64,000 nt of DNA, from assembly GCF_003182275.1 (NCBI RefSeq), contig NZ_QGTR01000004.1, forward strand, positions 1 through 64,000, given 5' to 3'. Source of the DNA: Hoeflea marina (GTDB lineage Bacteria > Pseudomonadota > Alphaproteobacteria > Rhizobiales > Rhizobiaceae). The notes under the pieces are model-generated. The model was not told the DNA's origin and did no database searches. It was given only the letters and a program-made list of their open reading frames with translations. Position numbers and translations under genes: made by a program. This document shows positions 52,624 through 60,631 of the stretch, piece after piece (the stretch's first letter is position 1; every line of letters begins with the position of its first letter).

Positions 52624-52810
52624 CGGCTGGAGCCGACAGGCCGATGGGCCCGAGCCACCAGGAGGCTTCGACGTGAACGCCGCAGGGCAATTCCGCGGCC
52701 CAGAAATCCGTGATTCCGTGATGTTGCCGTTCCCCGTCACACAGGCGCTTCGAAACCACCATCAGCTGCCGAGCGATCCCGGATGTCAGCAACGCCGTCC
52801 ACTTGGTCTG

Positions 52811-52839
52811 TTGAAATCGATCTCCACTTAAGGTATTGA
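52811..52839 (+). promoter_or_regulatory. Possible sigma70-type promoter of the LicD-like module
   Basis: TTGAAA (52811-52816) and TATTGA (52834-52839) are separated by 17 bases in a locally AT-rich stretch. A transcript from here would begin just before the ATG at 52867. Confidence 0.45.
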
Positions 52840-52866
52840 TATCGAACAAAACATTCGGGTTTTGCG

Positions 52867-54012
52867 ATGTTTCGCGAGACCAAACTTTCGGGATCGCCTT
52901 CGATGTATTCGTACACTTTTCCCGAATCATTCATCGAGCCCGCACGGGCAGACGTCCACAAGATGATCTCGAATCATTTTGTCGCCCGCCATCAGCCTCC
53001 GCTCGATATTCGGCCCCTCGATCCCTTCAATCCGCGGATCAGCCTGGAGCGGGCTGCCGGCCTTCTGAGCCGGGCCCTGGCGTCCGGGGTGCCGGCTGAC
53101 TGGTGGATTGGCGTCGGTACCGCGCTCGGACTGGCGCGGGAACGCGGCTTCATCGAGGGAGATACGGATATCGACATCCGCATCGGCCTTGCCTATGCCG
53201 GGAAGGATGCCGCCTTCGCCTATGCGCGGGAGATTGTCGACCGGTTCGAGGCGAACGGCTTTCGCCTCATCCGCGAAACCTTCTGGAACGGCCTGCTGAT
53301 GCAGACCGCTTTCGCCGACGAGACGAATGACGGGGTCATCGTCGACATCTACTATTTCTATTCGGGAATTTACGAGGAGGTCTTCGTGAATTTCAACGAG
53401 CATGGATTTCGGCGCAAGCCGGAGCGTCTGGTCCGCAACAAGTCCCGGGTGACATGGCCCGGCCATCCGGAGATCGGCGTCTATGTTCCGTCACCCGTCG
53501 AGGACTACCTCGAATGGCGGTTCGGGCCGGAGTGGCGGATCAAGAAGAAGAACTCGGAACTCGGACCTATCGACACGAAATGCATCGAAAAGCTGCCGCT
53601 TGCCACGGTGCTGACCTACGGCACATTCGACCTGTTTCATTTCGGCCACAAGCGGCTGTTGAACAGAGCGCGCGCACTGGGTGACCAGTTGGTAGTCGGC
53701 GTGGTGTCCGACGCGCTGTGCCGGGTCAAGGGCAAATCCCCCTGGCAGAACGAGGATCGAAGAGCCGAAGCGGTGAGGAGGTTCCCCGGCGTCGACATGG
53801 TCTTCATTCAACGGACCCTTGACCAGAAGGAGTTCGACATCGACCGCTACGGCGCAAGCTTCCTGGTGGTCGGCGACGACTGGGCCAATCATCCCCGCTT
53901 CGAGGCCGTGCGAAACTATCATGGCGTGGAACTCGTCTACCTGCCGCGCACGCCGCTGATATCAACGGCGCTCAAGAAGATCTTCTTGCCCAAGCCGAGT
54001 GCCACCAGATGA
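52867..54012 (+). CDS. LicD-like domain fused to a TagD-like cytidylyltransferase
   Basis: A 381-residue fusion. Residues about 78-225 resemble LicD/fukutin-type nucleotidyltransferase folds: GVGTALGLARERGFI then the metal-binding DTDIDIRI (99-106). Residues about 245-375 form a cytidylyltransferase with GTFDLFHFGH (252-261) and the RTPLIST signature (361-367), as in glycerol-3-phosphate or phosphoethanolamine cytidylyltransferases. The first domain would transfer, and the second would activate, a phospho-alcohol to be attached to a glycan. The start may be 52867 or the ATG at 52903. The kinase-like gene overlaps its stop by 4 bases, so the two form one operon. Confidence 0.88.
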   Translation: MFRETKLSGSPSMYSYTFPESFIEPARADVHKMISNHFVARHQPPLDIRPLDPFNPRISLERAAGLLSRALASGVPADWWIGVGTALGLARERGFIEGDTDIDIRIGLAYAGKDAAFAYAREIVDRFEANGFRLIRETFWNGLLMQTAFADETNDGVIVDIYYFYSGIYEEVFVNFNEHGFRRKPERLVRNKSRVTWPGHPEIGVYVPSPVEDYLEWRFGPEWRIKKKNSELGPIDTKCIEKLPLATVLTYGTFDLFHFGHKRLLNRARALGDQLVVGVVSDALCRVKGKSPWQNEDRRAEAVRRFPGVDMVFIQRTLDQKEFDIDRYGASFLVVGDDWANHPRFEAVRNYHGVELVYLPRTPLISTALKKIFLPKPSATR

Positions 54013-54698
54013 GAAACGTGGCCGCCGACTATCCACCGCTGTTCGGCCGCTATCTCGCCACCATCGATCCCGATGTCGGCGTGGTGGTGGAGGTTGTGCG
54101 CCGTGAGGAAGCATCGACACCTGTTGCACACAGGAAGGTGGCATTCTGCGTCAGCGGAGCCATTGGCTACAGAGTGGTGGCCGACGAACACGCGCTGAGT
54201 TCGATCAGCATTGACCTCGAACGCCGACTGGTGACGAAGCATGTCGCCGCCTACAGCGAATTCGGCATTCTCGAACGCGAGGTAGATTGGCTTCGCCGCC
54301 TGGCGGCAAGCGGCATCGCACCACCCTTGCGGTCCGCGACCGCCGACCGGCTGTTTCTCGATTACGTCGGCGAACCCGTGCGCCGGGGCAACCTGCCCTC
54401 GGACTGGCCCGTGCAGGCGGAAGCCATTCTCGCGGCGCTGACCTCGCACGGTTGCGCTCACAACGACATCAAGTGCGACAACCTGACGGTCGCCGACGGA
54501 AAGATCCACCTTATCGATTACGGCTGGGCCACGCCGATCGGCCAAGCCATACCAGCCCACTGGCCGCATGGCATCGGCCGCCAGCACCGGCTCGGCGTCC
54601 ATCGGTTTGACGATCGCGCGGCCATCTTCGCGGCGCTCGGGTCGGCGGAAAGGGGCGAGGTCGACCGCTCCGTGGTGATGGGGCACAACCCGACCTGA
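54009..54698 (+). CDS. Small-molecule kinase-like protein (protein kinase fold)
   Basis: A 229-residue protein with the catalytic core of the kinase superfamily: K77 and E90 or E91 as the ATP-site pair, HNDIKCDN (151-158) as the catalytic loop, and LIDYGW (168-173) in place of DFG. It is smaller than Hanks-type protein kinases and looks like choline-, ethanolamine- or sugar-kinase types such as LicA. Its ATG overlaps the upstream LicD/cytidylyltransferase gene (ATGA), so it may phosphorylate the alcohol that the cytidylyltransferase then activates. Confidence 0.82.
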   Translation: MRNVAADYPPLFGRYLATIDPDVGVVVEVVRREEASTPVAHRKVAFCVSGAIGYRVVADEHALSSISIDLERRLVTKHVAAYSEFGILEREVDWLRRLAASGIAPPLRSATADRLFLDYVGEPVRRGNLPSDWPVQAEAILAALTSHGCAHNDIKCDNLTVADGKIHLIDYGWATPIGQAIPAHWPHGIGRQHRLGVHRFDDRAAIFAALGSAERGEVDRSVVMGHNPT

Positions 54699-54776
54699 CC
54701 AGCCGGCTTGACCGGTCCGTCGCCGGACATCCGGATGCCGGAGCCATGCACCCGCCGGCCCCGCGACGGGGCCGAC

Positions 54777-54802
54777 GGCCACCGGGACGAACCCCGGTGG
54801 CC
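54777..54802. terminator. Stem-loop between convergent genes
   Basis: GGCCACCGGG and CCCGGTGGCC form a perfect 10-base stem with a 6-base loop between the convergent kinase and cupin genes. No T-run follows, so it may work as a transcription barrier in both directions or with Rho. Confidence 0.55.
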
Positions 54803-54820
54803 TCCTGGCGGCCGGCGCTG

Positions 54821-55270
54821 TCAGGCGGCGAGCAAGGGGGGACCGGTGAATGTCAGATTGTGCCGAACGGCAGCCGCCTCGATGGGCTTCATGTCGTCGG
54901 GAATGGCGAACTGGCCGGCCGCCATCTCCGTGAAGAAGCCCTCAAATCCGCCCGGCGTCAGGATGACGAGGTGACGCGAAGGCTCGCTGCCGACGACCTG
55001 GAACGTGTGCTCCCTGCCGCGCGGGACAAAGACTGTTTCCCCCGGCCCCCTGGTGAACTCCTGGCCGTCCAGCCAGAACCGGCAATAACCGCTGAGCAGG
55101 ATGAAGGCCTCGTCCTCGGCCTGGTGCACGTGCCGCGGCGGACCGCTGCCGACGGGCGCGACGCTGTCCAGGATCGCCATCGCGCCTCCGCTGGCGGCTG
55201 TCGAGAGAATGGTCTTGTAGCTCACTCCGAGCCATTTGATGTCGCCGGAGTCGATTGACGGACATTGCAT
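54821..55270 (-). CDS. Cupin-domain protein
   Basis: A 149-residue single cupin. The two metal-binding motifs are visible: RHVHQAEDEAFILLSG (H-x-H...E) and GREHTFQVVG (final H). The ligands probably hold iron, zinc or manganese; many such proteins are dioxygenases or isomerases, and others are mere binding folds. It diverges from a LysR-type regulator 110 bases away and is the likely target of that protein. Confidence 0.87.
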   Translation of the reverse strand: MQCPSIDSGDIKWLGVSYKTILSTAASGGAMAILDSVAPVGSGPPRHVHQAEDEAFILLSGYCRFWLDGQEFTRGPGETVFVPRGREHTFQVVGSEPSRHLVILTPGGFEGFFTEMAAGQFAIPDDMKPIEAAAVRHNLTFTGPPLLAA

Positions 55271-55350
55271 GGGTTTCTCCTTCCTGACGTGACGACGCGA
55301 GACCGCGTTCGTTGAAGGGGGACATAAATCGTGGTACGGACTCCGGCAAA

Positions 55351-55370
55351 TCGTATGTTTTCATATGAGC
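55351..55370. promoter_or_regulatory. Possible LysR operator
   Basis: CGTATG-TTTT-CATATG is an inverted repeat with one mismatch, centred between the divergent cupin and LysR genes and close to the LysR start. LysR proteins commonly bind T-N11-A motifs within such imperfect palindromes. Confidence 0.5.
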
Positions 55371-55380
55371 TATCGCCCAG

Positions 55381-56340
55381 ATGAATTTTGCGACCTTCGA
55401 TCTCAATCTCTTGCGGATTCTGGACGCGCTTCTGACGGAAGGTTCCACGGTCAAGGCGGGCGAGAAACTCGCCATGTCGCAATCGGCCGTGTCCGGTGCG
55501 CTTTCGCGTCTGCGCTTTGCACTCAACGATGAGCTTTTCGTGCGCCGCGGCAACCGGCTGGTCGCCACGGATTACGCCGCAGCCATGGCGGTGGAACTGA
55601 GGACTCACCTCAGGAGCGTCGAAGCCATGTTGTCTCCGCCGCGGGCCTTCCAGCCCGCGAAGGCGCAAGGCATCTACCGGATTGCAGGGAGTGATTTCTT
55701 TGCCGAGATCCTGATGCCACAGCTTGCGAGGCGATTGCGGCAGGAGGCTCCCGGACTAAAGGTGCAACTCGTCGATCTTGTGCCCGCCAGCTACGTCACC
55801 AGCCTCGAGCAGTACCGGGCAGACCTGGCCTTGATTCCCGACACCGAGGTGCCGGACTGGATCGAGAAGGCGCCGGCGTTCCATTCGAGCTTCGCGGTCA
55901 TCGCACGAAAGGGCCACCCCGCCATCGCCGCCGGCGGAATCCGGCCAGGCCAGGTCTTGCCGCTCGATATATTCTGCAGCTTGGGCCACGTGCTGTTCTC
56001 TCCGGAAGGAAACCTCGAGGCGATGGGGGACGCCGCCCTGGCGCGGGTCGGTCGAAAACGCGACGTCCTCATGACGCTGCCGGTGTTCTCGGGTGTGGCA
56101 CGGGCAGTCAGCGAAAGTGATCTCGTGGCTCTTGTCCCCAGGCAACTGGGCGAAAACCTGGCTCGGGGCACGAGCCTCGACCTGTTCGTCCCTCCCACGC
56201 CCATCGAGCCGACGCTGATGATCGGAGCCTGGCATCGCAAGTCGGGCAGGAATCCGCTGCACATCTGGTTTCGGAGCCTCGTCATGGAACTGCTTCGTCC
56301 GCTCAATGAAAGCGAGGCCCCGCTCCCCGCCTGGTCGTGA
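55381..56340 (+). CDS. LysR-type transcriptional regulator
   Basis: A 319-residue regulator with an N-terminal winged helix (LNLLRILDALLTEGSTVKAGEKL then MSQSAVSGALSRLR) and a C-terminal effector domain of type-2 periplasmic-binding fold. The N-terminus MNFATFDLNLL is close to the NodD/NahR group of LysR proteins. The divergent cupin gene and the palindrome between them suggest that it senses a metabolite connected with that enzyme. Confidence 0.93.
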   Translation: MNFATFDLNLLRILDALLTEGSTVKAGEKLAMSQSAVSGALSRLRFALNDELFVRRGNRLVATDYAAAMAVELRTHLRSVEAMLSPPRAFQPAKAQGIYRIAGSDFFAEILMPQLARRLRQEAPGLKVQLVDLVPASYVTSLEQYRADLALIPDTEVPDWIEKAPAFHSSFAVIARKGHPAIAAGGIRPGQVLPLDIFCSLGHVLFSPEGNLEAMGDAALARVGRKRDVLMTLPVFSGVARAVSESDLVALVPRQLGENLARGTSLDLFVPPTPIEPTLMIGAWHRKSGRNPLHIWFRSLVMELLRPLNESEAPLPAWS

Positions 56341-56393
56341 CGCAGGCGCGAGGCCCAATGCCGCAGCCCCCGTCGCCAACGGCCACGAAGGAA

Positions 56394-56422
56394 TTGACAC
56401 CATACCAACTGGTCGGTATGTC
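56394..56422 (+). promoter_or_regulatory. Sigma70-type promoter with TetR-like operator in the spacer
   Basis: TTGACA (56394-56399) and TATGTC (56417-56422) are spaced by 17 bases. The intervening 20-base sequence CATACCAACTGGTCGGTATG (56401-56420) is a near-palindrome of the type bound by TetR-family repressors, with CATACC/GGTATG arms. Binding would block the promoter of the SRPBCC-GST-VOC operon. The TetR gene itself is not in the window. Confidence 0.7.
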
Positions 56423-56476
56423 TATCGGGTCCGGAGCGGAGGCCTCGGACAGGCCATCAGACGCGGAGGAAACCAC

Positions 56477-56920
56477 ATGCCCACCACGATCAGACTGCAC
56501 CGGATGATCACCACCAGGCCTGAGAAGGTCTATCGCGCCTTTCTCGAGGCCGATGCCGTCGCCAACTGGCTGCCGCCCTACGGCTATCTGTGCACGGTCC
56601 ACGAACTGGATGCGAAGGTCGGCGGCAGCCACAGGATGTCGTTCCGGAATTTCACCACCGGCGCGAGCCATTCCTTCGGCGGCGAATATGTCGAACTCGT
56701 GCCCGGCGAACGCCTGGTCTATACGGACCGGTTCGACGACCCGAACCTGCCCGGCGAGATGCTGGTCACCGTAACCCTGAAGGCGGTGTCCATGGGAACC
56801 GAAGTCAGCATCGTGCAGGAGGGCGTGCCGGACGTGATCCCGTCCGACGCCTGCTACCTCGGCTGGCAGGACTCGCTCAACAAACTTGCCAGGCTCGTCC
56901 AGCCCGAGATCAATCACTAG
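56477..56920 (+). CDS. SRPBCC (AHSA1-type) domain protein
   Basis: A 147-residue START-like protein with the family segments RPEKVYRAFLEADAVANWLPPYG and GGEYVELVPGERLVYTDRFDD. These domains bind hydrophobic ligands and often serve in stress or detoxification operons. GGAGG precedes the ATG. It is first of an operon with GST and VOC genes, downstream of a TetR-type operator. Confidence 0.9.
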   Translation: MPTTIRLHRMITTRPEKVYRAFLEADAVANWLPPYGYLCTVHELDAKVGGSHRMSFRNFTTGASHSFGGEYVELVPGERLVYTDRFDDPNLPGEMLVTVTLKAVSMGTEVSIVQEGVPDVIPSDACYLGWQDSLNKLARLVQPEINH

Positions 56921-56942
56921 CACGCGCCCCGGGAGCCTCGTC

Positions 56943-57596
56943 ATGATCCCCGTCATCACAGCATTCGACCGCTCTCCCGACGGCGGCAAGGGACTGGCGC
57001 GCGACACCCGCGTCCGCTGGGCGCTGGAGGAAGCAGGACAGTCGTGCGACGTGCGCCCGGTCTCCTTCGCATCCTTGCGGCAGCCGGCGCATCTGGCCCT
57101 CAATCCCTTCGGTCAGATCCCCACCTACGAGGAGGACGATCTCGTGCTCTTCGAGACCGGCGCCATCGTGCTGCACATCGCCGAACGCCACAACGGGCTG
57201 CTGCCGGTCGACGCCGCCGCCCGGGCGCGTGCCATCGCCTGGATGTTCGCCGCCCTCAACACCGTCGAGCCGCCGATCCTCGAGCGCCAGACCGCCGTCC
57301 TGCTCGAATCCGACAAACCCTGGACGGCAGAACGGCTGCGCAGCATCGACCAGCGCATCGATGTCCGGCTCGGCCAGCTCTCTGCCCGGCTCGGCGACGA
57401 CGAATGGCTCGACGGCGGCTTCAGCGCCGGCGACCTGATGATGGTGTCGGTGCTGCTCAGGCTCGGATCTTCGGGTCTGCTCGACAAGCATCCGGGGCTC
57501 GCCGCCTATCTCGCCCGCGGCGAGGCGCGCCCGGCCTATCGCCGCGCCTTCGAAGCCCAGCGGACGTTCAACACCCGGCCAGGGCCTTCAGAATGA
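56943..57596 (+). CDS. Glutathione S-transferase
   Basis: A 217-residue GST with a thioredoxin-like N-terminal domain (PFGQIPTYEEDDLVLFETGAI holds the conserved cis-proline and the SNAIL/TRAIL-like segment) and an all-helical C-terminal domain (WLDGGFSAGDLMMVSVLLRL). It would conjugate electrophiles with glutathione in the cytoplasm. It starts 22 bases after the SRPBCC gene. The electrophile cannot be named from sequence. Confidence 0.9.
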   Translation: MIPVITAFDRSPDGGKGLARDTRVRWALEEAGQSCDVRPVSFASLRQPAHLALNPFGQIPTYEEDDLVLFETGAIVLHIAERHNGLLPVDAAARARAIAWMFAALNTVEPPILERQTAVLLESDKPWTAERLRSIDQRIDVRLGQLSARLGDDEWLDGGFSAGDLMMVSVLLRLGSSGLLDKHPGLAAYLARGEARPAYRRAFEAQRTFNTRPGPSE

Positions 57597-57692
57597 TCCG
57601 CCGGTGCATCACTCAGCAACCGGTTTCACATCGCGCCCCTCCCGGGCGGTGCCCGTCCGGAAGGCCGGGTTTACAATTGAAAGGAGACTGAC

Positions 57693-58184
57693 ATGACAGA
57701 CCTCGTGACCTGCATATGGTTCGACCACGGCGAAGCCGGCAAGGCGGCCCGGTTCTACGCCGAGACCTTCCCCGACAGCCATGTCGAGCGTACGAATGCC
57801 GCGCCGGGCGACTTTCCGGGGGGGACTGAAGGCGCCGAACTCACCGTCGAGTTCACCGTTCTGGGGCGCAAATTCGTCGGCCTCAATGGTGGCCCGATCT
57901 TCAAGCCGAATGAATCGGTGAGCTTCATGGTCGTCACCGAGACCCAGGAAGAGACCGACCGCTACTGGAACGCCATCGTCGGCAATGGCGGCCAGGAAAG
58001 CGAGTGCGGCTGGTGCAAGGACCGCTGGGGCTTCTCCTGGCAGATCACGCCCCGCCGGCTGCTCGACCTGGTGACGAGCACCGACCACACCGAGGCCAGG
58101 CGCGCATTCGACGCGATGATGACGATGCGCAGGATCGACATCGCCACCATCGAGGCAGCGGTGGCGAACCGTCCGCAACACTGA
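57693..58184 (+). CDS. VOC family protein (PhnB-like)
   Basis: A 163-residue protein of the vicinal-oxygen-chelate fold, near PhnB and 3-demethylubiquinone-like families: [38 protein letters not shown] and [12 protein letters not shown] are characteristic. Members of this group often lack clear catalysis. It lies 96 bases after GST and is the last of the three plus-strand genes. Purine-rich AAAGGAGAC precedes its ATG. Confidence 0.9.
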
Positions 58185-58544
58185 GCACGCACCGCTTGGG
58201 GCGCGTCGGAGCCACCGAACGCACCGGCGATCGGCAGCATACGGCAGAGATGCGCCCGAAACCGATGCCGGGTCTGCGCCCGGATCAGCGGCGAAGCCAT
58301 GCGCCGACGAACGACCTCCGGCGCATCGGCCGAATCGATCCGGGCGACGCGTCGTGGCGAGCGTGCACCGGCGGGCCAGCCGTGAATTCACCGGCGCCGG
58401 CACGCCTGCCGGCCGCTCAGACGTCGCATACGGATCCTCATCCGCCGCATGCGGGCCAGCCACGGCGTGCCGTGCCCTGCAACCTGTCCGGAAAGCAAGA
58501 GTATCGGCAAATACAAGCCGATCACTGACCGGGCGGGGGAACCA
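58185..58544. other. Intergenic region without supported gene
   Basis: About 360 bases of GC-rich sequence between the VOC gene and the UspA-like gene. Two short frames overlap here without domain or ribosome-binding support. I see no repeat or clear promoter; GGGGGA near its end serves as the ribosome binding site of the next gene. Confidence 0.5.
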
Positions 58545-58961
58545 ATGTTCAGCAACATCATGGTGCCCGTGGATCGCGCGCATGCCGACAAACTGTCGCT
58601 TGCGCCGGACACGGCGGCAAAACTGGCGAAACTCTATCGGGCGCCGGTCACCTATGTCGGCGTGAAGGCTGCGACGCCCGGTCCGGTTGCTCGCAATCCT
58701 GCCGAATACGATCGCAAGCTTGCCGCTTTTGTTGCCGCCCGGTCCGAGGCTGATGGCATCGAGGTCCACGGCAAGCCCTTCGTCAGCCACGCTCCGGCGG
58801 CCGATCTCGACGACGCTCTGATCAGGACTGTCAACGAGACCGGAAGCGATCTCGGGGTCATGGCGACGCATGATCCGAAGATCGCCGATGTCCTCTGGCC
58901 GTCGAACGGCGGCAAGGTTGCGAGCCACACGAACGCCTCCGTCTTTCTCATCCGCGGCTGA
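58545..58961 (+). CDS. Universal stress protein (UspA-like)
   Basis: A 138-residue single-domain USP: the N-terminal strand MFSNIMVPVD, then a C-terminal nucleotide-loop region GVMATHDPKIADVLWPSNGGKVASHTNASVFLI. The ATP-binding motif is G-x2-G-like but weak, so nucleotide binding is uncertain. It is followed after 47 bases by the BCCT transporter and is probably cotranscribed, as is often seen for Usp proteins next to transporters. Confidence 0.88.
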   Translation: MFSNIMVPVDRAHADKLSLAPDTAAKLAKLYRAPVTYVGVKAATPGPVARNPAEYDRKLAAFVAARSEADGIEVHGKPFVSHAPAADLDDALIRTVNETGSDLGVMATHDPKIADVLWPSNGGKVASHTNASVFLIRG

Positions 58962-59008
58962 CCGCGGCCCCGCGGCAAACGCGGCAACAGCACAATCGGG
59001 AGACCACC

Positions 59009-60631
59009 ATGAGCGACACCAGCGGACCCGGAATACCGGCGCCGGAAGGACCTTCCAACCGTATCGACACCGGATACGAGGTCGGCCAGGACAACATCTC
59101 CATGTCCGTTGGCCCCTTCGGCCTCGACATTCACAATCCCGTCTTCGCGATTTCCGGCCTGACCATCATCGCCTTCGTCTTCGTCACCCTCGCCTTCCAG
59201 GAGAGCACCGGGGCGGCGTTCGGTGATCTGCGCGACTGGCTGACCGGGACCTTCGACTGGTTCTTCCTGACCGCTGCCAACATCTTCGTGCTGCTTTGCC
59301 TGTTCCTGATCATCTCGCCCTACGGCAGGGTCCGGATCGGCGGCCGCGAGGCCACGCCGGACTATTCCTACACCGGATGGTTCGCCATGCTGTTTGCCGC
59401 CGGCATGGGCATCGGGCTGATGTTCTACGGCGTGTCGGAGCCGATCTCGCATTTCTCCTCCTCCGTGGCCGAGAACGCCGGCACGGCCGAAAGCTGGGCG
59501 CCGCTCGGCGGCGCGGCGGGCGACGCGGCCGAAGCGCGCGATCTCGGCATGGCGGCGACGATCTTCCACTGGGGCCTGCATCCCTGGGCGATCTACGCCG
59601 TCGTCGCGCTGGCGCTGGCGCTGTTCTCCTACAACAAGGGGCTGCCGCTGACGATGCGCTCCGTGTTCTACCCGATTTTCGGTGAACGCGTGTGGGGCTG
59701 GACCGGCCATGTCATCGACATCCTGGCGGTCTTCGCCACGCTGTTCGGACTGGCGACGTCGCTGGGCTTCGGCGCCGAGCAGGCCAATGCCGGCCTCAAC
59801 CACATCTTCGGGATTCCGGTCAGCGACGTCTCAAAGGTGGTGCTGATCGTGGCCATCACCGGCGTTGCGCTGATGTCGGTCGTCGCCGGCCTCGACGCTG
59901 GCGTCAAGCGCCTCTCCGAGATCAACATGGTTCTCGCCGCCCTGCTGCTCGCCTTCGTGCTGGTGGTCGGTCCCACCATGGCGATCTTCACAGGCTTCTT
60001 CCACAACCTCTACGAATATGCGCGCTATCTGCCTGAGCTGTCCAATCCGTTCGGGCGCACGGACGACAATTTCCGCCATGGCTGGACCGCGTTCTACTGG
60101 GCCTGGTGGATCTCATGGTCGCCGTTTGTCGGCATGTTCATCGCCCGCGTCAGCCGCGGCCGCACGGTGCGCGAGTTTCTCACCTGCGTGCTGATCATCC
60201 CGTCGCTGGTCTCGGTTTTCTGGATGACCGTCTTCGGCGGCACGGCCATCGATCAGCTGGTCAATGACGGCTACCAGGTGGTCGCCGATGCGCCGCTGGA
60301 GCTGAAGCTGTTTGCCATGCTCGAGGCGCTGCCGCTGCAGCAGATCACCTCGTTCATCGCCATCGTGCTGGTGATCGTGTTCTTCGTTACCTCGTCGGAC
60401 TCGGGTTCGCTGGTGATCGACACCATCACCGCCGGCGGCAAGGTGGATGCGCCGGTGCCGCAGCGCGTCTTCTGGGCAAGCTTCGAGGGCCTCGTCGCCA
60501 TCGCGCTGCTGCTCGGCGGCGGACTGGGCGCACTGCAGGCCATGGCCGTGTCGACGGGCTTCCCGTTCACGATCGTGCTGCTGCTGGCCTGCTTCGCCAT
60601 CCTCAAGGGATTGCACAGCGAACCGCGCTGA
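59009..60631 (+). CDS. BCCT family transporter (choline/carnitine/betaine type)
   Basis: A 540-residue transporter with about 12 transmembrane helices. The BCCT signature GMGIGLMFYGVSEPI and the substrate-site region WAWWISWSPFVGMFIARVSRGR are present, with four conserved tryptophans in the latter. Such proteins import betaine, choline or carnitine using sodium or protons and support osmotic adaptation. The MttB-like enzyme at 35.2 kb could in principle use a methylated amine of this type, but the genes are far apart. A stem-loop follows the stop codon. Confidence 0.95.
   Translation: MSDTSGPGIPAPEGPSNRIDTGYEVGQDNISMSVGPFGLDIHNPVFAISGLTIIAFVFVTLAFQESTGAAFGDLRDWLTGTFDWFFLTAANIFVLLCLFLIISPYGRVRIGGREATPDYSYTGWFAMLFAAGMGIGLMFYGVSEPISHFSSSVAENAGTAESWAPLGGAAGDAAEARDLGMAATIFHWGLHPWAIYAVVALALALFSYNKGLPLTMRSVFYPIFGERVWGWTGHVIDILAVFATLFGLATSLGFGAEQANAGLNHIFGIPVSDVSKVVLIVAITGVALMSVVAGLDAGVKRLSEINMVLAALLLAFVLVVGPTMAIFTGFFHNLYEYARYLPELSNPFGRTDDNFRHGWTAFYWAWWISWSPFVGMFIARVSRGRTVREFLTCVLIIPSLVSVFWMTVFGGTAIDQLVNDGYQVVADAPLELKLFAMLEALPLQQITSFIAIVLVIVFFVTSSDSGSLVIDTITAGGKVDAPVPQRVFWASFEGLVAIALLLGGGLGALQAMAVSTGFPFTIVLLLACFAILKGLHSEPR

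Follow-up and report, generated by a model that had tools for sequence, protein, structure and literature searches.

The window analysed here is a stretch of 64,000 nucleotides from Hoeflea marina (contig NZ_QGTR01000004.1, positions 1 to 64,000 of the forward strand), and it carries a module of two genes (Table 1). The first gene encodes a single protein in which a LicD-type domain is joined to a TagD-type cytidylyltransferase domain, and the second encodes a kinase-like protein. The two genes are joined by a 4-bp stop/start overlap, ATGA, and the kinase-like gene is probably co-translated with the fusion. A preliminary description of this DNA had recognised these elements. The presence of both halves in one protein is borne out by profiles and by the predicted fold, and the overlapping kinase-like gene is confirmed by the ATGA overlap and by its intact catalytic residues.

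Domains of the fusion protein

Homology of the N-terminal half to PF04991 (LicD/FKTN/FKRP) extends across the nucleotidyltransferase (NTase) core, with an hhalign probability of 97.7 and E 1.9e-12. Its Pfam score is below the cut-off of PF04991, as is that of its relative L178, and the relatives L176, L206 and L218 score above it (L numbers denote loci). The G(T/S)xLGxxR motif and the Asp set are kept, comprising G84, L87, G88, R91, D99, D101, D103, and D160. D99, D101, and D103 are invariant in the alignments A2, A4, and A6 and in the nine rows of A8 that bear LicD in addition to the window, while D160 is invariant in A4, A6, and 9/9 of these A8 rows, and not in the wider set A2. By alignment, D160 would be the equivalent of Asp416 of FKRP, for which the catalytic residues were taken from the part of PMC6965139 consulted. 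The predicted fold of this half is an NTase fold like that of FKRP, and the domain is a putative transferase of phospho-alcohol from a CDP donor.

The C-terminal half scores 63.2 bits with PF01467 (CTP_transf_like; cut-off 21) and keeps the HxGH and RT..(I)ST motifs of that domain. Of the 33 columns that at least 20 of 21 TagD proteins conserve, it keeps 27, among them HxGH, Lys at 288, and Arg-Thr at 361-362. The more specific TIGR01518 gives 86.8 bits against a cut-off of 165.4. The best fold match is 1coz, other alcohol-phosphate enzymes score high too, and the TagD-type folds matched include phosphocholine and phosphoethanolamine enzymes.

In the proposed mechanism, the TagD-type domain would use CTP to activate a phospho-alcohol as a CDP-alcohol, with sn-glycerol-3-phosphate as the likeliest substrate. 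The LicD/FKRP-type domain would then pass the phospho-alcohol on from this CDP donor; the acceptor is probably either a glycan of the cell surface or a further phospho-alcohol. The protein would be the joined form of LicD and TagD genes, which are found paired repeatedly, in bacteria as well as viral contigs. The fusion is probably best explained as a two-step CDP-polyol synthase/polyol-phosphotransferase whose LicD half is of phage type, gained as cargo, a reading that leaves the substrate of the kinase aside.

Table 1. Features of the two-gene module, with positions in the window
Feature	Position	Strand	Evidence
Fusion gene, 381 aa (amino acids): N-terminal LicD-type and C-terminal TagD-type cytidylyltransferase domain	52867..54012	+	profiles, alignments, predicted fold
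LicD/FKRP-like nucleotidyltransferase-fold domain, residues ~51-231	53017..53559	+	
D99-x-D101-x-D103, metal-binding Asp motif of LicD/FKRP proteins	53161..53175	+	alignments
D160, third catalytic Asp	53344..53346	+	alignments
TagD-type cytidylyltransferase domain, residues ~245-372	53599..53982	+	profiles, alignment, predicted fold
HxGH nucleotide-binding motif, H258 and H261	53638..53649	+	alignments
Kinase-like gene, 229 aa, start overlapping the fusion stop as ATGA	54009..54698	+	
Kinase catalytic loop HxDxKxxN, H151-N158	54459..54482	+	
Kinase D170-Y-G, DFG-equivalent	54516..54524	+	

Distribution, viral relatives and genomic setting

The genome sets searched for the fusion are partly overlapping samples of the database and not the whole of it. 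Of 151 genomes of relatives, own included, searched with the whole fusion, 30 match, and outside the own genome they do so in the TagD half only; the N-terminal half was found in the own genome only among 385 genomes of the class. No second fusion was detected in 398 genomes of the phylum, where a match in L043 spans both halves but consists of two genes, and the LicD matches, which occur in 18 of 372 genomes of the class, likewise contained none, L164 being the only one of their loci with a TagD-type frame nearby. In tblastn, 66 plasmid and 17 phage records match the fusion, none of them over 80% of the query, and viral and genome scans seeded with the single fusion protein gave no match. Among viral structure models, the matches include LicD proteins and cytidylyltransferases from phages and giant viruses, but none of the 50 rows listed covers the whole fusion well (TM by query at most 0.37).

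Two further fusion types occur, both in viral contigs. The protein of L218 has 350 amino acids, with LicD followed by TagD as in the window. The other type, in L206/L207, is represented by L206:1472-4033, which encodes 853 amino acids in the order GT2-LicD-TagD-GT2 and adjoins genes for a major tail protein and a tail protein. Both Pfam domains score above their cut-offs in L218 and L206. The protein of L206 would place several glycan-building steps within one viral protein. The fusion therefore looks rare, not unique, and no description of a LicD-TagD fusion was found in the literature, which was searched largely without full texts.

As separate genes the two recur side by side. A LicD gene lies within ~1.5 kb of a TagD-type gene in 8 of 37 loci, a count that leaves out 20 loci (L011-L030), all long open reading frames (ORFs). 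With wider flanks, LicD is present in 11 of 23 bacterial and plasmid loci, chosen partly for having LicD. LicD is directly followed by TagD, overlapping or gapless, in L142, L143, L144, and L145, and LicD precedes TagD on a Sinorhizobium meliloti plasmid; in L039, from the family of the window's own organism, TagD precedes LicD.

The surroundings of these pairs are varied. In an alphaproteobacterium (L142:9877-11342), LicD-TagD lies inside a stretch of ribosomal protein genes and adjoins rplA, an assignment that was checked, and the region that follows reads like the rplL region. In L144:9052-10945 and L145:9124-11004, overlapping LicD-TagD genes adjoin 3-deoxy-D-manno-octulosonic acid (Kdo) transferase and Kdo kinase genes of a lipopolysaccharide (LPS) core cluster, the Kdo transferase assignment being profile-checked in L144 only; this arrangement suggests a phospho-alcohol on the inner core. 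A Kdo kinase gene is also found ~3 kb from LicD-TagD in L143. Flagellar genes form another setting: in L072:9714-10109 a TagD-type gene comes directly after the FliI and FliJ genes of a flagellar operon, L034:10085-12039 on an Octadecabacter plasmid has the order flagellin-TagD-LicD, and three E. coli plasmid matches overlie a fliJ annotation. Phospho-alcohol modification of flagella is possible in such cases. In L038:3576-6816, LicD is followed by a TagD-type domain fused to a Gfo/Idh oxidoreductase-like part and then by an aminotransferase-like gene (names assigned by eye). Two TagD-type genes occur in L106, together with LicD genes and an aminotransferase-like gene resembling that of L038.

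A LicD alignment scan of viral contigs yielded 31 loci, with a TagD-type gene no more than 3 kb away in 14 of them; the number of independent viral LicD-TagD loci is less than 14, since the scores of L187, L188, and L190-L192 suggest near copies. Head, tail, and terminase neighbours were looked for in part of the viral loci, including L175, L178, L206, L215, and L216. In L175 and L178, LicD follows a major head protein gene at a distance of one or two small genes, and the second viral scan revealed a terminase gene in L216 and a head protein gene in L215. Among 71 LicD domains placed in a tree, that of the window falls in a set of 16 rows of which 15 are viral (support 96/87, bootstrap not settled), and its 18 best matches among the tree rows are all viral. 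The LicD half thus appears to be of viral or phage type, and a phage origin may be envisaged for it. The LicD halves of L206 and L218 stand elsewhere in the tree, that of L218 on a long branch with its place unsure, and independent fusions are therefore favoured. The TagD half, on the other hand, seems closer to free-standing bacterial TagD than to TagD-type proteins beside viral LicD genes, with 50% identity to bacterial proteins against 39% for the best viral locus among the loci compared. One record of 4557 bases, without annotation and filed under Bacteriophage sp., runs counter to this bacterial affinity at 52.5%.

The pair recurs in viral contigs, where it is sometimes fused and at times neighbours head or tail genes, and this points to a use of phospho-alcohol decoration by phages; literature searches found no description of such a use. 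It is a speculative and rather doubtful extension that self-contained phage cassettes, some of them among head and tail genes, make CDP-polyol and attach polyol phosphate, possibly decorating virions or the host surface, with the window gene as a fused cellular form accompanied by a new type of kinase supplying or priming the substrate.

The window neighbours of the module are genes for an HD protein, a phosphatase-like protein, NrtR, a cupin, LysR, AHSA1, GST, and Usp. Within the genus, 17 of 18 genomes, own included, encode the NrtR-like protein. In all 10 congener regions taken, nrtR is accompanied by the phosphatase-like gene, and the HD gene precedes the two in nine; the tenth stretch begins too late to show it. 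The fusion, kinase, cupin, and LysR genes are absent from the stretches taken in the 10 congeners, and the genes after nrtR differ in each of the four congeners examined. From nrtR to a transporter gene of the BCCT (betaine/carnitine/choline) family, positions 52624-59008 form an apparent variable-gene spot in the genus. Neither the LicD half nor the kinase was found in 150 relatives, 17 of them congeners. The module is probably gained cargo in this variable spot. The BCCT gene, at 59009-60631 and 4.3 kb from the module, is not counted as part of it, because a BCCT-like gene follows the same spot in the congener L137, which is without the module (read by eye). With the neighbours named above, the idea that the module belongs to a capsule or LPS cluster was dropped. 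A prophage remnant in the window was also dropped, as there is no phage gene among these neighbours, no wider look having been made.

The GC content across most of the fusion gene is 57-61% against 60-73% in the preceding stretch, and the GC content at third codon positions (GC3) is 0.77 for the fusion and 0.78 for the kinase against 0.82-0.88 in three upstream genes. Some downstream genes have GC3 values as low (LysR 0.77, Usp 0.75), so that composition by itself argues only weakly for gain. Alignments that include the window protein served as seeds for the viral scans, and cellular members of the viral-type set may therefore be missed. The same may result from the genome scan for LicD, in which cellular rows came only from among the matches listed.

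The kinase-like gene and alternative explanations

The kinase-like protein keeps its catalytic residues, namely HxDxKxxN, D170-Y-G, and K77 and E89 as assigned in this analysis. Pkinase is the sole Pfam match (5.8e-4) and is limited to the catalytic loop. NCBIfam gives Bud32 (3.5e-4), thiamine kinase (0.011), and GntI (0.035), the latter two being the nearest small-molecule kinase models, and the Pkinase and Bud32 scores are below the curated cut-offs. A PHROGs kinase family matches residues 68-176 (0.0016), and eukaryotic protein kinase chains in PDB match weakly, with E from 0.012. No choline-kinase or APH model was among the Pfam matches at E up to 10, a negative of limited meaning as HMMER filters discard most matches above 0.1, and neither NF002475 nor the Kdo kinase Pfam family was among the profile matches. 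The single-sequence structure model has a pLDDT of 32, too low for judging the fold. A role as a defence kinase was considered and dropped; the PD-T4-6 models match the catalytic loop only (best 1.1e-5).

Among the 151 genomes of relatives, the kinase was found in the own genome only. In the phylum, 38 of 398 genomes match at E up to 0.05, own included, and the matches among the loci examined are generic protein kinases, Kdo-kinase-like proteins, or chance. No homologue was detected on plasmids or in scans of viral contigs, and phage records gave one marginal match (E 5e-3). No comparable kinase lies near LicD-TagD in 39 viral loci or in 37 viral records, many of them fragments, and among the 23 bacterial and plasmid loci a kinase motif occurs in L143-L145 only, all three being Kdo kinases (NF002475). 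Because no similar kinase was found near other LicD-TagD genes, it is the gene overlap alone that gives the kinase a place in the pathway.

The kinase may have no metabolic link to the fusion, being either a protein kinase or unrelated cargo that is co-translated with it by chance arrangement. This is conceivable, if somewhat unlikely. The protein-kinase and Bud32 models as best matches, together with the weak PDB matches, agree with it, as do the finding of such a kinase beside LicD-TagD here only and the unrelated genes that the spot carries in the four congeners examined; the 4-bp ATGA overlap, of a kind typical of functionally coupled genes, argues the other way.

Alternatively, the kinase might act on the acceptor in the manner of a Kdo or glycan kinase and phosphorylate a sugar at or near the LicD attachment point. 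Kdo kinase genes are located beside LicD-TagD in L144 and L145 and more distantly in L143, these kinases and the window kinase are both ~230 amino acids long with Bud32 matches, and the FKRP acceptor bears an O-mannose phosphate recognised by the enzyme, according to the part of PMC6965139 consulted. Such a role is nonetheless unlikely. Kdo kinase is expected in LPS-core clusters anyway, and the hhalign probability is lower for the Kdo kinase set (92.7 over 78 columns) than for the protein-kinase set (98.1), the latter being favoured because it was gathered with the window kinase.

The preliminary description had proposed a complete Lic-type pathway, in which a free alcohol, be it choline, ethanolamine, or a sugar alcohol, is phosphorylated by the kinase, activated with CTP by the TagD half, and transferred by the LicD half. 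The co-translation suggested by the overlap, the intact catalytic residues, the weak thiamine kinase match, the phosphocholine and phosphoethanolamine enzymes among the TagD-type folds, and the BCCT-family transporter gene would suit this pathway, but it is improbable and was not borne out, given that the best weak matches are Pkinase and Bud32 with no choline-kinase or APH Pfam model, that no such kinase accompanies LicD-TagD in the viral and bacterial sets above (Kdo kinases apart), and that a BCCT-like gene occupies the same spot in the module-less L137. The domains had been seen correctly and the kinase over-read, and that interpretation is partly supported. For the two-step CDP-polyol synthase/polyol-phosphotransferase, glycerol-3-phosphate is a central metabolite, and since it comes from central metabolism no dedicated alcohol kinase would be needed for a CDP-glycerol route.

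Comparison with known systems

Published systems were compared from parts of PMC11666461, PMC6965139, PMC11982090, and PMC6697681. The closest tested chemistry found is that of Cps7B and Cps7C in the capsule pathway of Actinobacillus pleuropneumoniae. Cps7B is a glycerol-3-phosphate cytidylyltransferase that makes CDP-glycerol, and from its activity it may be of TagD type; the LicD-family Cps7C is a Gro3P polymerase that adds glycerol-3-phosphate units and requires D247 and D293 (PMC11666461). As proposed for the window, a cytidylyltransferase makes the CDP-alcohol, here CDP-glycerol, and a LicD-family NTase-fold enzyme with two catalytic Asp residues uses it. In contrast, Cps7B and Cps7C are encoded by separate genes, Cps7C bears an N-terminal TPR domain, and a kinase partner is not mentioned in the part of PMC11666461 consulted. 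The view that the pairing was undescribed may hold for the fusion, of which no description was found, and fails for the enzyme pair, of which PMC11666461 describes one. TagD and LicD are already known as an enzyme pair, and the fused form looks rare.

TagD (CTP:glycerol-3-phosphate cytidylyltransferase, 1coz) is a free-standing enzyme of teichoic acid synthesis, unlike the fused domain of the window, which scores under the TIGR01518 cut-off. The Lic pathway consists of licA-licB-licC-licD, and it resembles the module in having a LicD-family transferase that uses a CDP-alcohol and a kinase-like gene nearby. It differs in that the two-gene unit has no LicB-type permease, the BCCT gene lying 4.3 kb away, and in that the window kinase has no choline-kinase model in Pfam. 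The cytidylyltransferase is also of another family, as noted in the preliminary description, being PF01467 in the window and PF12804 in LicC (PMC6697681, consulted in part). FKRP, the human ribitol-phosphate transferase, differs from the fusion by its stem domain and zinc-finger loop and by the lack of a cytidylyltransferase half, as far as the consulted part of PMC6965139 describes it. The viral proteins of L218 and L206/L207 likewise combine the two domains within a single ORF, in the order seen in the window protein. Unlike it, they have LicD halves in other parts of the tree and were probably fused independently (the place of L218 being unsure), and L206 has two added GT2 domains and adjoins tail genes.

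LicD/FKRP-family CDP-alcohol-dependent transferases decorate glycans, and for many of them the donor is not known. A donor-making domain within the transferase protein itself reveals the activation step and narrows the donor to TagD-type products.
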